DNA of 64,000 nucleotides, taken from NCBI RefSeq assembly GCF_000377945.1, contig NZ_KB898939.1, forward strand, positions 1 through 64,000. The letters are read 5' to 3'. The notes under the pieces were generated by a model that saw only the letters and a program-made list of their open reading frames with translations, was not told the origin of the DNA and made no database searches. The DNA is from Thioalkalivibrio sulfidiphilus (lineage in GTDB: Bacteria > Pseudomonadota > Gammaproteobacteria > Ectothiorhodospirales > Ectothiorhodospiraceae). Made by a program: the position numbers and the translations under genes. Position 1 is the first letter of the stretch. Each line of letters begins with the position of its first letter. Shown piece after piece: positions 51,521 to 58,157 of this stretch.

Positions 51521-51548
51521 CAAAAAAACCCCGGCCCGAAGGCCGGGG
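51521..51548 (-). terminator. Orphan rho-independent terminator facing leftward
   Basis: CCCCGGCCCGAAGGCCGGGG (51529-51548) is a perfect hairpin preceded on the plus strand by seven A, which on the minus strand gives a T-run after the stem. It would end a leftward transcript coming from 51549 or beyond. No leftward gene is there. Confidence 0.82.
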
Positions 51549-52095
51549 CAATCTCAGAGGGGATACACCCGCAAAACACCATTCGGACAGGTACGGATCT
51601 GCTATGGAACCGCACCTGGCCTGGAGCCCCGGCGCATTGCGCCGTGCCCCGCTTGCAGCGACCGGCGATTCCCTGACCGGGCGCATGCCCGGGATACGGC
51701 CACCACGATTTGCCGCATCCCGACACCGGCGTGTCACCGCCGATGTTCTTGCCGGATTGGGCGATCACCCGAAGGCACCTGCCATGGAATCCGGCGTAAA
51801 CTGTGTTCTTCTCTGGGGGTACAACACCCCCGGAAGAAAGGTTCGGGCTTCCCTGCCTCGCTTGTTAGCGACCTGTAAGATGGGTCCCGGAGAGGATTTA
51901 TTCCGGATTCACGAGAAATTGATGTAAAAAAACTCTTTCAGGGCGAAACCGGGTGACTCACCCGTCACGATGGAATAAATTTTTGACTCGAACCATCTTT
52001 GGGAACATGCAGCCGTGCGCCCGCCATTCGGGGATTCACCCGGGCAGGTGTCCAATTATTCCAACCACAACACGGCTGCCCATCAGGAGGGATAC
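51549..52095. other. Gene-free 547-base spacer with several GC stems
   Basis: No convincing protein frame on either strand. Palindromes are visible at 51633-51651 (CCGGCGCATTGCGCCG type), 51673-51690 (CCGGGCGCATGCCCGGG) and 51817-51833 (GGGGGTACAACACCCCC). An AT-richer stretch at 51895-51990 precedes the sigma-factor gene and probably carries its promoter. The left part may encode a structured leftward RNA ending at the terminator above. Confidence 0.5.
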
Positions 52096-52653
52096 ATGAG
52101 CTGGATCCATTTATTCGGGGGAGGATCCCGTGCCTGGCAGCAGCGGCTCAAGGAGAGTCGCGTCCGGTTGTACCGGCTGGCGCTGTCCTGGTGCGGTGAT
52201 GAGATGCTGGCCGACGACCTTGCCCAGGAGACCCTGGCCAGGGCGTTGCGCAAACACCAACAACTGCGGGACCCGGAGCGGGTCGACGCCTGGCTGTTCG
52301 CCATCCTGCACAACTGCTGGCGCGAACACCTGCGACGCCTCAAGCCCCAGGTCCCCCTGGACGATATTCAGTTCGTCTGTGATCGCTGCCCGGAGTACGA
52401 GCACACACAGGACGAGATCGTGTTCCAGGTGCGTCAGGCGGTGGCCGCCCTGCCCATGGGGCAGCGGGAAGTGGTCACCCTGGTGGATCTGGAGGGACTG
52501 AGCTACGCGGAAGTGGCCCAGGTCCTGGAAATACCCCTGGGCACGGTGATGAGCCGTCTGAGCCGCGCAAGGCGGGCCCTGAGAGAGACCCTGGAGTCCG
52601 TGCAATCGCCCGCCGGGAACCAGGAAGCGCCGAAACTCTGGAGAGTCAAGTGA
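52096..52653 (+). CDS. ECF-type RNA polymerase sigma factor
   Basis: 185 residues. Region 2 spans about 20-86 (ADDLAQETLARALRKHQQLR; DAWLFAILHNCWREHLRRLK) and region 4 about 112-165 (LPMGQREVVTLVDLEGLSYA; IPLGTVMSRLSRARRALRE). The ATG at 52096 has a strong AGGAGGG ribosome site. It overlaps the anti-sigma gene by one base (TGATG). The spacer at 51549 supplies its promoter, and autoregulation is usual for the family. Confidence 0.94.
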   Translation: MSWIHLFGGGSRAWQQRLKESRVRLYRLALSWCGDEMLADDLAQETLARALRKHQQLRDPERVDAWLFAILHNCWREHLRRLKPQVPLDDIQFVCDRCPEYEHTQDEIVFQVRQAVAALPMGQREVVTLVDLEGLSYAEVAQVLEIPLGTVMSRLSRARRALRETLESVQSPAGNQEAPKLWRVK

Positions 52654-53408
52654 TGGACAAATCACACATCGGTGGCGACGAACACACCCTGAACGCTCTG
52701 GTGGACGGGGAACTGGACAGCGCCGCACGCCGGGAGATCCTGCGCCGTCTGCGCGAGGACGAGGAACTGCGCGGCGTCGCCTGCAGCCTGCGCCACGTGA
52801 AGACCCTGGTGCACCACGGCTATGCCAGCGCGGAGCCGCCGCGCCGACGCCGGGAACACCCCATACGCCGGGCGATGCGTTTCCCCTCCATGGCCGCCGC
52901 GGCCGTGCTGCTGGGCATCGGCTTCGCTGCCGGTCTGCTGATTTCCGACGGCATCGAGCGCCACAAGCCCGAGGCCTACGTGGCCCACATCCAGGGTCCC
53001 GAGCCCGCCGCCGTGGTCAACGGCGTGCGCATCGAGCCGCGCCAGATCCAGGCCAACAAGTTCGTGCTGCACATCAGCCAGGGCGGCGAGCACCGCTTCG
53101 CCGATGTCATGGATCGCGCCGAGCAACTGCTGGCCGTCTACCCGGGCCCGGGCCTGGAGATCGAGGTGGTGGCCAACTCCGAGGGACTTGGCCTGTTCCG
53201 CGAGGAGACCTCCACCCAGGTGGAGCGCATCCGTCTGCTCACTGAGCGCCACGAGAACGTCCACTTCATCGCCTGCCAGAACACCATGGAAGTCCTGCAG
53301 CGCCAGGGCGTGCGCACCCGCCTGATCACCGGCACCAAGACCACCCAGTCCGCCGTTGATCACATCATCGACCGGCTCCAGGACGGCTGGGTCTACGTGC
53401 GCACGTAG
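52653..53408 (+). CDS. Anti-sigma factor with C-terminal DsrE-like domain
   Basis: 251 residues in three parts. Residues 1-60 are a short cytoplasmic anti-sigma-type segment (LNALVDGELDSAARREILRR). Residues 80-98 are a single membrane span (MAAAAVLLGIGFAAGLLIS). Residues about 135-251 read as a DsrE/DsrF-type sulfur-relay fold in the periplasm: LEIEVVANSEGLGLF, HFIACQNTMEVLQRQGV and RLQDGWVYVRT. Cys208 (ACQNT) is where DsrE/TusD proteins keep their sulfur-carrying Cys. The DsrE-like reading is from pattern memory. Fusing a sulfur-relay-like sensor to an anti-sigma is unusual. Confidence 0.82.
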   Translation: MDKSHIGGDEHTLNALVDGELDSAARREILRRLREDEELRGVACSLRHVKTLVHHGYASAEPPRRRREHPIRRAMRFPSMAAAAVLLGIGFAAGLLISDGIERHKPEAYVAHIQGPEPAAVVNGVRIEPRQIQANKFVLHISQGGEHRFADVMDRAEQLLAVYPGPGLEIEVVANSEGLGLFREETSTQVERIRLLTERHENVHFIACQNTMEVLQRQGVRTRLITGTKTTQSAVDHIIDRLQDGWVYVRT

Positions 53409-54578: not shown

Positions 54579-55673
54579 TTATCCGCCCGCCAGATTAATC
54601 TTGGGGAGCAGCGAGGCATCGGTGACAAAGCGCTGGAAGGCCTTCTTGTCATTAGCGTGCAGATAGGCATCATCGGGATCGATGAGCTTCTTCTCCAGAG
54701 CCTCCATCAGCGCCTGATCCAGCAGTTGCATACCCCGCTCACGCCCGGTCTGCATCTGGGAAGGGATCTGGTGCACCTTGTCGGTCATGATCATCTTGGC
54801 GATGGCCCGGGTGACCACCAGGCATTCCACCACGGCATGGCGTCCACGTCCGTCTGCTTTCTTGACCAGGTTCTGGGTAAGTACGCCATGAAGGTTCTGG
54901 GACAGAAAGGTCTTACCCTGCTCGCGCAACTCGATGGGAATGGCATCCAGGATACGGTCGATGGTCTTGACCGCAGAGGTGGTATGCAGGGTACCAAGCA
55001 CCAGATGACCGGTCTCGGCGGCGATCATTGCCATGGTGATGGACTCCGCGTCACGCAACTCACCCACCAGGATTACGTCCGGGTCCTCGCGCAGTGCCGC
55101 GCGCAGACCATCCGCATAGCTCTGCACGTGGGTACCCACCTCCCGCTGTATCACCTGGGCTTTCTTGCTGTGGTGCACGAACTCGATCGGATCTTCCAGG
55201 CTCAGGATGTTGACCGCCCGGCGGCTGTTGATGTGATCGATGATCGCCGCCAGCGTAGTGGACTTGCCGGTACCCGTTGAGCCGGTGACCAGTACCATGC
55301 CCTGGTGATGCTCAATGAGCTCGTGAACCACCGGCGGCAGACCCAGTTCGTCCAGCTGGGGGACACTGGCGGGCACGTGACGGAAGGTCGCACCCACACC
55401 TGTTGCCTTGCGAAACAGGTTGACACGGAACCGGCCCACCTCGTCCGCTACGTAGGAGAAGTCCAGATCCTCGCCCTCTCGAAAACGCTTACGCTGGGTC
55501 GGCGTGAGGATCTCCAGCACGTAGGCCTCCAGTTCACGCTCACCCAGGTCGCGGAACTTGATGGGCATCAGATCCCCATTCATGCGCAGCATCGGCGGCA
55601 CACCCACCGCGAGATGCAAGTCCGAACAACCCTGCTCGCGGCCCAGCTTGAGAAATGCGTTGATGCGTGCCAT
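54579..55673 (-). CDS. pilT: Type IV pilus retraction ATPase PilT
   Basis: 364 residues. Walker A VTGSTGTGKSTTLA near residue 130, Asp box LSLEDPIEFVHHSKKAQVIQ, Walker B LREDPDVILVGELRD and GTLHTTSAVKTIDR are all intact. The N-terminus begins MARINAFLKLGREQGCSDLH. It overlaps the kinase gene by one base at 55673. Which of the two is the main motor cannot be told from sequence alone; both keep full ATPase motifs. Confidence 0.9.
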   Translation of the reverse strand: MARINAFLKLGREQGCSDLHLAVGVPPMLRMNGDLMPIKFRDLGERELEAYVLEILTPTQRKRFREGEDLDFSYVADEVGRFRVNLFRKATGVGATFRHVPASVPQLDELGLPPVVHELIEHHQGMVLVTGSTGTGKSTTLAAIIDHINSRRAVNILSLEDPIEFVHHSKKAQVIQREVGTHVQSYADGLRAALREDPDVILVGELRDAESITMAMIAAETGHLVLGTLHTTSAVKTIDRILDAIPIELREQGKTFLSQNLHGVLTQNLVKKADGRGRHAVVECLVVTRAIAKMIMTDKVHQIPSQMQTGRERGMQLLDQALMEALEKKLIDPDDAYLHANDKKAFQRFVTDASLLPKINLAGG

Positions 55674-58081
55674 CAGTCGATGAATCCCGCCAGGGCGCGG
55701 CGGACCTCCTCCATGTTCTGGTACCGGTCTTCCGGGGACAAGGCCATCATCTTTGTCACCACGGCGCCCAGCGTCCTGGGCACGCCCGGGTTGACCTCGC
55801 TCACCGGACGGGCCTTGCCCTGTACATGCTGGTACATCACGGCCATCTGGTCCTCGCCGGTGTAGGGGAGGGTACCGGTAAGCATCTCATACATCATGAT
55901 GCCCAAAGCGTAGATATCGGACCGGGCATCAACTGGCTTGCCCAGCACCTGCTCCGGTGACATGTACTTGGGCGTACCGATGAGGATGCCAGTGCGGGTC
56001 AGCTGCTGATCGCCAGCGGCGCGGGCGGCTGCCACGCCAAAGTCCACGATCTTCAGCACACCACGGTTGTTGATCAGCACGTTACCCGGCTTGAGATCGC
56101 GATGCACCACACCGGTTTCATGGGCCGCGGCCATGCCCTTGGCGATGTCGTGTGTGTAGCGCAGGGCGGTCTCGATCGGTAGCGGTTCGCGGGCCTCCAG
56201 GGACACAGCCAGAGTACTGGAGGGGAAGTACTCCATGGAGATAGCCAACAGTCCCTGAATGTTGAGGAAGTCATATATGCGAATGACGTTCTCGTGGGTG
56301 ATCTTGCGCGACAGGCGCATCTCCTGCACGAAGCGCTTGATCATGTCCTCATCGGAGGCCATCTGGGGATGCAGCACCTTGAGGATCAATGACTCGGAGA
56401 TCACTTCGTCCTCGACCAGCAGGACTGTACCGAATGCACCGCGCCCAACACGGCGCACGTAGCGGTAGCGATCTCCGATCATCTCCCCCGGCTGAAGGCG
56501 ATTGATGTCGAGGTTTGCCAGTGACTGAGGCGCCGAGGCTGGCGGGCGGGCCGGCTCGTCCGGGTTCTGAAGCATGGACATCGCCAGGGTGTCATCGGCA
56601 TGAGCCGGCGTTGGCTTGGATACCATGCGAGTCAGGGAAGCTGCAGCGGAGAATTTGTCCTGCAAGCGGTCGCGCACCTCCAGTGCCGACTCGCGCACCT
56701 CGGAGGTGGCCTTTTCAGTGTACTTGATGATCACCTCGCAGATCCCGGCAGCATTATCGGAACCGGCCAGCTCGCCCAGGGTATGCAGGGCCTCCAGCTG
56801 GATCTCGGGCACGGGGCGTTTGAGCTGCTCCAGCACAGCATGGATCACCCTCTCGTCGCCCAGCTTGGCGAGCGCCCGCAGCACGACCGGCGCCGCTTTC
56901 TCGTCGCGCTTGAGCATGCGCACCAGTGCCGGCGTGGCGGCCTTGTTGCCGATATTGGCCAGGGCATCCACGGCACGTTCACGCACCCACCAGTCGGAAT
57001 CCTCCAGGGCATCTATAAGATGACTGATAGCCTGTTCGTCCCGTGTGGAATTGAGGATCTCGATGGCGGAGCGGCGGATGAATTCATCATCGTCCTTGAT
57101 CAGTTCCACCACAGCCTTGACCACCCTGGGCCCACCAATCTTGGCCAAAGCGTCAGCGGAGCGTGCGCGCACCCACCAGTCCGCGTCCTTGACCGACTCC
57201 AGCAGTTCCTTGATGGCGGCTGCGCTGCCGATCTTGTTGAGCACCTCCACGGCTGCCCGGCGGGCATGCTCCGCCTCGTCATGGAGCACCGCAGACAGGT
57301 ACTTCATGGTGTCCGGATCGTTGCGCTTGATAATAGTTTCTATGGCCTGCTCCTGGACCTTGATGTCCCGGTCACGCAGCAGGTTGCAGAGCTTTTCCAG
57401 ATCGAGCCGGGCGTCATGGGTCGAGAGGACTTCTAAGGCCGCCTGGCGCACCCCTTTGTCCGGATCCTCAAGCAGGTGCTGCAGGGTCTCCACCACTTCC
57501 GGGGTCTGGAACCGCCCCAGAATACGCACGATCTGCATGCGCACCACCGGATCCTTGCCCGAGACCCGGTTGAGCAACTCTGGTACCAACGACGGGTCAG
57601 CCACTTCGGTGACCAGCTTCATCAGGGCGTTGCGGTCGGTGGGCTCCAAGGTATAGGCGTAGCGCAACAGCGCACCGGCATCCAGACGCTTGCGATGGGC
57701 AGAGAGCACCTGGATCAACGCACTCTTGGGGATACGGGGGTCGCCGAAGGCCGACATGAGACGGTTGGGATCAAAGCCGGTACCGCGACACAGGACGTCC
57801 GTGACCCGCGATACGGACTGGGAGTTGCCGTCCGCCAGGGCCTCGGAGAACACCGGCAGGCTGGCGTTATCCAGCAGCCTGACCAGAAGCTCGGAGATGC
57901 GCGGCACCTCATCGCGAGCCGCGTGGCCAAGCGCATGGATGAGCTTATTCACACCCGTGTCGCCCAGGCCCCGCAGCTTGGAAACCAGTTGCTTGCGATC
58001 CTCGGCAGTACCCACCCGCTCGCGGGGGTCCAGCAGGCGCGCGATGATGCGCTCGGCCTTGAAGTCCCGCAGCAGGCTCAT
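55673..58081 (-). CDS. HEAT-repeat protein fused to a Ser/Thr kinase domain
   Basis: 802 residues. Residues about 30-490 are HEAT-like helical repeats with recurrent DADWWVRARSADALAKIG and DSDWWVRERAVDALANIG, and similar units. A linker with Pro-rich TPAHADD and PARPPASAP follows. The protein kinase domain occupies 534-802: glycine loop GRGAFG (546-551), Lys568, HRDLKPGN with HRD at 660-662, and DFG at 680-682. All catalytic residues are present, so it should be active. No membrane segment. It is translationally coupled to pilT, which points to a role in pilus control. Start ATG 58081; an upstream ATG at 58117 is less likely. Confidence 0.9.
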   Translation of the reverse strand: MSLLRDFKAERIIARLLDPRERVGTAEDRKQLVSKLRGLGDTGVNKLIHALGHAARDEVPRISELLVRLLDNASLPVFSEALADGNSQSVSRVTDVLCRGTGFDPNRLMSAFGDPRIPKSALIQVLSAHRKRLDAGALLRYAYTLEPTDRNALMKLVTEVADPSLVPELLNRVSGKDPVVRMQIVRILGRFQTPEVVETLQHLLEDPDKGVRQAALEVLSTHDARLDLEKLCNLLRDRDIKVQEQAIETIIKRNDPDTMKYLSAVLHDEAEHARRAAVEVLNKIGSAAAIKELLESVKDADWWVRARSADALAKIGGPRVVKAVVELIKDDDEFIRRSAIEILNSTRDEQAISHLIDALEDSDWWVRERAVDALANIGNKAATPALVRMLKRDEKAAPVVLRALAKLGDERVIHAVLEQLKRPVPEIQLEALHTLGELAGSDNAAGICEVIIKYTEKATSEVRESALEVRDRLQDKFSAAASLTRMVSKPTPAHADDTLAMSMLQNPDEPARPPASAPQSLANLDINRLQPGEMIGDRYRYVRRVGRGAFGTVLLVEDEVISESLILKVLHPQMASDEDMIKRFVQEMRLSRKITHENVIRIYDFLNIQGLLAISMEYFPSSTLAVSLEAREPLPIETALRYTHDIAKGMAAAHETGVVHRDLKPGNVLINNRGVLKIVDFGVAAARAAGDQQLTRTGILIGTPKYMSPEQVLGKPVDARSDIYALGIMMYEMLTGTLPYTGEDQMAVMYQHVQGKARPVSEVNPGVPRTLGAVVTKMMALSPEDRYQNMEEVRRALAGFID

Positions 58082-58157
58082 GCCGCCCCCTGCACGCACG
58101 GGGCGCGGGGTTCGCAAGCACAGGTTGTGAAGGGGTTGCCGGCTGGGCGCATCAGAC

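Follow-up and report, generated by a model that had tools for sequence, protein, structure and literature searches.

An anti-sigma factor fused to a periplasmic DsrE domain: a candidate sulfur-sensing system of Gammaproteobacteria

The ECF26 sigma factors of the alphaproteobacterium Sinorhizobium meliloti recognize promoters with GGAATA at -35 and GT at -10 (PMC3511301, PMC6180224); GGAATA/GT has been given as the consensus, and the mapped rpoE4 promoter reads GGAATAAGCGAGGCAGCTCGCTCGTCTC (PMC6180224). Both RpoE1 and RpoE4 are responsive to sulfite-generating compounds, and the sulfite dehydrogenase SorT is under their control (PMC3511301, PMC6180224). It is poorly understood how external sulfur is sensed by the proteins that regulate sulfur oxidation (PMC11582611). 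In Hyphomicrobium denitrificans, the sulfane-sulfur repressors SoxR and sHdrR are cytoplasmic proteins of the ArsR type (PMC10451225, PMC12423496), and external sulfur is signalled via YeeE-like SoxT importers (PMC11582611).

We analysed a stretch of 64,000 nucleotides from Thioalkalivibrio sulfidiphilus (the window), in which an ECF sigma factor gene is followed by a gene for an anti-sigma factor with a DsrE-like periplasmic part. The sigma factor shares 42.6% identity with RpoE6, 44.9% with an Agrobacterium ECF sigma factor and 31% with Escherichia coli RpoE, its ECF26 likeness being expressed as pairwise identity. A profile of the anti-sigma protein matched EcfR6 and its Agrobacterium homologue along the anti-sigma domain and the membrane span but no further (positions 5-107); these two were the ECF26 anti-sigmas compared.

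Architecture and distribution of the fusion protein

The sigma gene (52096..52653, forward strand) encodes 185 amino acids with sigma70 regions 2 and 4. The reading frame behind it (52653-53408, forward strand; ATG at 52653, stop codon at 53406-53408) encodes a membrane anti-sigma factor of 251 amino acids fused to a periplasmic DsrE domain. One base is common to its ATG and the TGA of the sigma gene, which thus lies directly before it, as the original prediction had placed it. The architecture is well supported. Residues 4-58 (52662..52826) form a putative anti-sigma domain of three predicted helices, which together with the membrane span is homologous to EcfR6 and the Agrobacterium anti-sigma; a weak VIA match to MucA (Z 5.5) was also obtained. 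A single membrane span follows at residues 79-98 (52887..52946), with a mean hydropathy of 2.2 against 0.77 for the next best segment of the protein. Seven arginines stand directly on its N-terminal, cytoplasmic side and only two basic residues directly on its C-terminal side, which by the positive-inside rule gives an N-in/C-out topology, in agreement with the cytoplasmic anti-sigma-like segment and one span that had been predicted. By analogy with its homologues, the N-terminal domain probably sequesters the ECF sigma factor. The periplasmic part, expected to begin at residue 100, does so, and the DsrE domain proper occupies residues 134-251 (53052..53405), after a low-confidence linker.

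Since neither Pfam nor NCBIfam yielded a significant anti-sigma or DsrE match on the window protein, DsrE family membership had to be established by profile and fold. The Pfam model PF02635, without a significant match on the window protein itself, scored on 6 of 19 aligned relatives. MTH1491 was found at 1.6e-8 by a search with the single sequence, and a profile built from the 19 relatives retrieved MTH1491 (1l1s) at 5.9e-19 and ST0148 (2pd2) at 1.5e-11; no significant similarity to E. coli TusD emerged when profiles were compared. In the AlphaFold2 model, pLDDT is mostly above 90 from residue 141 onward. Foldseek and VIA agreed on the top fold matches, namely MTH1491, ST0148, YchN, SSO1126, TusD and the DsrE of DsrEFH. 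The best VIA match, to MTH1491, had a Z of 18.7 (1.6 A over 110 residues), and YchN, TusD and DsrE were matched with Z 12-14; the ten best matches, with Z from 18.7 to 11.2, were all of the DsrE/YchN/TusD type, whereas unrelated folds stayed below Z 7. The DsrE-like periplasmic domain proposed from the sequence is thus borne out by the predicted fold and the profile.

The original prediction had singled out Cys208 (tgc, 53274..53276) in this periplasmic part. When 77 distinct full-length relatives were aligned, all 77 had cysteine in column 208, and this is the only cysteine among the last 140 residues of each; Trp246 and Tyr248 are likewise invariant, and His140 nearly so. Cys208 aligned with a cysteine of MTH1491, and its place after a strand suggests that it is equivalent to the active cysteine of DsrE/TusD. 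The lone periplasmic cysteine argues against an internal disulfide and would be compatible with an intermolecular bond or with chemistry through a persulfide or an adduct. The stand-alone DsrE proteins of the fetched loci keep the cysteine in 52 of 54 cases. In two secreted DsrE proteins of the g3 genomes (L034:990-1472 and L057:8544-9035), serine takes its place.

Matches to the anti-sigma/DsrE protein were found in 31 of 58 relatives, and an ECF gene stood just upstream of every full-length member of the first locus set. A chance or misread reading frame was ruled out, as the pair of ECF gene and fusion is kept in about 28 of the 58 relatives and far beyond them. Among 274 sampled gammaproteobacterial genomes, 56 carried 78 full-length matches. 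Across 299 sampled genomes of the phylum, full-length fusions occurred only in Gammaproteobacteria, and the other classes gave only partial or stand-alone DsrE matches.

The window's genome (69 contigs, 3.05 Mb) encodes a paralogous anti-sigma/DsrE protein (C9:44996-45709, 31% identity), whose unit (L004:6426-8237) is a three-gene operon of ECF, anti-sigma/DsrE and a secreted DsrE protein of 147 amino acids (PF02635, 5e-10). In most of 40 further loci, a secreted DsrE gene likewise lies near the unit, either third in the operon or divergent from it, which supports a periplasmic site for the sensor domain. No DsrF or DsrH gene stands beside the window unit, so that the gene set of a cytoplasmic transfer system of the DsrEFH/TusBCD type is absent there. 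The window's genome also contains soxB and a gene for a SorA-like sulfite dehydrogenase; given these genes and the Thioalkalivibrio congeners, the sulfur oxidizer first surmised from the sequence is a fair reading of the organism.

The window unit adjoins glnE, as do six units in other families. In genome G005, an ECF/anti-sigma pair directly follows genes for a sulfite dehydrogenase and a cytochrome, and a single stretch of about 12 kb in G202 holds soxXYZA, soxB, a secreted DsrE gene, the ECF and anti-sigma/DsrE pair, a second secreted DsrE gene, and genes for a porin, a thioredoxin-like protein and a YedE transporter. In 22 of 52 loci, the system has as its neighbour a gene for a porin-like outer membrane protein with an AANWL-LQGTEP motif (for example, L149:12073-13659, L047:11743-13125 and L211:14622-16040); two copies that were scanned had no Pfam match. 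Elsewhere in the window (55673-58117, reverse strand), a protein of 814 amino acids is encoded directly before pilT/pilU-like genes; its sequence suggests HEAT-type repeats with a Ser/Thr kinase domain behind them.

Promoter motif and predicted regulon

The motif was derived by comparing the upstream regions of the sigma genes alone. In the first set, GGAATA-N16-CRTC preceded every sigma gene examined; in a wider set, GGAATA-N15..17-CRTC preceded 51 of 55 and also 17 of 35 stand-alone DsrE genes, against a background of 16 among 1146 other reading frames and 1 among 1146 reversed sequences. Only 3 of 22 porin-like genes had a site of their own. At the window unit, the predicted ECF promoter of the sigma/anti-sigma operon, GGAATAAATTTTTGACTCGAACCATCTTT, lies at 51972..52000 on the forward strand, and a second, divergent ECF-type promoter, GGAATAAATCCTCTCCGGGACCCATCTTA, kept in all five species of the genus, lies at 51876..51904 on the reverse strand. 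The window's own sigma site has CATC at -10, where most sigma sites show CGTC; the promoter of the paralogue operon is of the CGTC type, which is also found before soxB. The assignment of sites to one or the other of the paralogous sigma factors is provisional, as it is read from the -10 element alone.

A search for GGAATAA-N14..16-CRTC in the five congeneric species returned 44 sites, 32 with spacing 15 and 12 with spacing 14 or 16, against 3 in backward controls over all spacings. We took the genes behind the spacing-15 sites as the genus targets, and the regulon predicted from these sequences is well supported. In all five species, such sites flank both sides of the window unit and precede the paralogue operon, and a further site stands before a sorA-like sulfite dehydrogenase gene, the spacers having diverged. 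The SorA-like protein scored 3.5e-78 with the SorA model, below the equivalog cut-off, and a SorB-like cytochrome adjoins it. Sites were also found in four species before modE-modABC and in four before soxB, two of the latter through the motif search and two, from the window's genome and its nearest relative, through inspection of the gene. These two sites read GGAATAG-N15-CGTCCTT, with GGAATAG instead of GGAATAA, and lie about 140-160 bases ahead of the start. In the two closest species, the genes for a small c-type cytochrome and for a PstS-like binding protein also have sites. Relaxing the search for CATC sites brought in one more secreted DsrE gene, the third (C8:96564; PF02635 at 7e-6, above gathering). 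ECF-type sites before sulfur genes, which the original prediction had proposed to look for, thus stand before the sorA-like gene, soxB and secreted DsrE genes and, elsewhere, before YeeE/YedE genes and a sox operon.

Two loci of the window's genome deserve separate mention. The gene for the PstS-like binding protein (L100:6515-7399, on C10), with a perfect ECF site in front, lies between gyrB-like and M3-peptidase-like genes. At the mod operon, modE was not seen before modA, and the sole strict ECF-type site lies at the end of modA, before modB (L101:6832, on C18).

In a distant set of 12 genomes carrying the system, GGAATAA-N15-CRTCT occurred at 21 sites, with 3 in backward controls. These sites precede ECF operons, YeeE/YedE sulfur transporter genes (PF04143) in three families, soxX-soxY of a soxXYZA-soxB-DsrE operon, secreted DsrE genes and, in one genome, a gene for a thioredoxin-like protein; a few have no clear gene behind them. 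The occurrence of sulfur genes as targets or neighbours in independent lineages indicates that the link to sulfur is not confined to a single genus. From lineage to lineage the target set varies: a stricter motif matched only the ECF operon itself in the g3 genomes (same family), and a SorA homologue was found in only 7 of the 57 system genomes searched. On the latter count, SorA was ruled out as a universal target.

The divergent promoter faces an intrinsic terminator (51549-51522) located just before glnE, and no conserved reading frame was seen between the two. The element, with a conserved 5' block and a conserved block before the terminator, looks from its sequence like an ECF-dependent small RNA (candidate transcript 51522..51870, reverse strand). 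The same arrangement of promoter and terminator occurs in two genomes of another family, G157 and G271 (at the equivalent loci L156 and L158), where the predicted transcript has about 118-126 nt and a CUCCUCC loop on a hairpin. Rfam matches within 51522-51600, the best being SorX (E 0.0016), were below the gathering score and were not accepted.

Possible routes of sulfur sensing

We favour, with a probability of roughly 0.6, an ECF26-like switch in which the periplasmic DsrE domain senses reduced-sulfur species directly through Cys208. This supports the original prediction that persulfide or reduced sulfur could be sensed outside the membrane, with release of the sigma factor. The anti-sigma domain would hold the sigma factor at the inner membrane, and a reduced or sulfane sulfur species would react at or bind near Cys208 of the sensor. 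The signal could be a persulfide or polysulfide, or an adduct derived from thiosulfate or sulfite, perhaps passed on by secreted DsrE proteins of the same regulon. The resulting change would cross the membrane span and free the sigma factor, either directly or via proteolysis of the anti-sigma. Freed sigma would then read GGAATAA-N15-CATC before its own operon, the divergent small RNA and the sorAB-like sulfite dehydrogenase genes, and before those for the c-type cytochrome, the ABC-type binding protein and secreted DsrE, together with the molybdate uptake genes in congeners. The identity of the signal, the chemistry at Cys208 and the manner of sigma release are what we infer least directly in this scheme.

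Direct sensing has two serious rivals. The sensor domain might instead bind secreted DsrE proteins, whose sulfur-loaded or unloaded state would decide whether the anti-sigma holds or releases the sigma factor. DsrE homologues and DsrE-type domains form oligomers, RseB acts on RseA in a comparable protein-mediated manner, and a secreted DsrE gene adjoins the unit in most loci, with an ECF site of its own in 17 of 35 cases; the two g3 copies with serine for cysteine point the same way, in that some secreted DsrE proteins may act by binding only. However, no secreted DsrE gene adjoins the window's own unit, and the cysteine of the sensor is kept at least as strictly as that of the secreted proteins (77 of 77 versus 52 of 54); we consider this route rather unlikely. 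The other serious rival, that the cysteine reports periplasmic thiol oxidation or sulfite or electrophile stress and that control of sulfur genes serves detoxification, draws on the description of ECF26 homologues as a sulfite response (PMC3511301), on the sorAB-like genes among the predicted targets and on the thioredoxin-like gene with a site in one genome. A lone periplasmic cysteine, however, excludes an intramolecular disulfide, and the predicted targets include the energy-yielding soxB and sox operons as well as sulfur importers, with which substrate use fits better than stress; we judge this reading rather unlikely as well.

We consider it very unlikely that this is an ordinary envelope-stress ECF system in which the DsrE domain serves only as a structural tail or as one that senses proteolysis. 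Membrane anti-sigmas under regulated proteolysis are a common type, and the porin-like protein is a frequent neighbour, but strict conservation of Cys208, Trp246 and Tyr248, with near-strict His140, and the sulfur-specific predicted targets speak against a tail of this kind.

If direct sensing through Cys208 holds, DsrE, known as a sulfur carrier, would also be a signalling domain, and a second class of proteobacteria would have its sulfur oxidation linked to ECF26-like sigma factors. The proposal offers a concrete, testable sensor, with one domain, one invariant cysteine, one promoter motif and a set of predicted targets, and possibly a biosensor for reduced sulfur. In a wider and more tentative form, which we put somewhat below even odds, a widespread gammaproteobacterial class of periplasmic DsrE domains on anti-sigmas would take up sulfane sulfur on a single cysteine, exchange it with the secreted DsrE carriers of the regulon and thereby set how strongly the genes for Sox, sulfite dehydrogenase and sulfur import are expressed; in some lineages, a sigma-dependent small RNA would form a repressing arm. 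A DsrE anti-sigma was not found in searches of the open-access literature, most subscription journals lying outside their coverage, which suggests that periplasmic sulfur sensing by such a protein is so far undescribed.

Comparison with known systems

The window unit shares its operon order and its promoter type, GGAATA with a GTC-type -10, with the ECF26 pairs RpoE4-EcfR4 (EcfR4 being the anti-sigma that takes part in sulfite control), RpoE1-EcfR1 and RpoE6-EcfR6 of S. meliloti. Its anti-sigma is homologous to EcfR6 in the N-terminal domain and the single span, whereas EcfR6 and the Agrobacterium protein carry another periplasmic domain in the place of DsrE. Sulfite dehydrogenase genes are targets in both systems (predicted targets here), but the predicted regulon of the window system also includes secreted DsrE genes and, as extra targets, sox, yeeE and mod genes. 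The simplest account of these sequences is that the window unit is of the ECF26 type, with its periplasmic domain exchanged for DsrE. The RseA-RpoE system of E. coli likewise pairs a membrane anti-sigma with an adjacent ECF gene, but its sigma factor is only 31% identical, RseA was not matched by the window profile and its periplasmic domain is unrelated to DsrE.

With the DsrE/DsrF-like family (PF02635), the window domain shares the fold and the cysteine after a core strand, and with MTH1491 also the GW-Y motif of the C-terminal strand. Known DsrE and TusD proteins are soluble cytoplasmic sulfur carriers that act in complexes, whereas the DsrE domain of the window lies behind a membrane span and faces the periplasm. 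A similar difference of compartment separates the system from SoxR and sHdrR: in both cases thiosulfate oxidation genes are controlled by sulfur availability (predicted for the window system), but SoxR and sHdrR are cytoplasmic, whereas the window system would read its signal outside the membrane.
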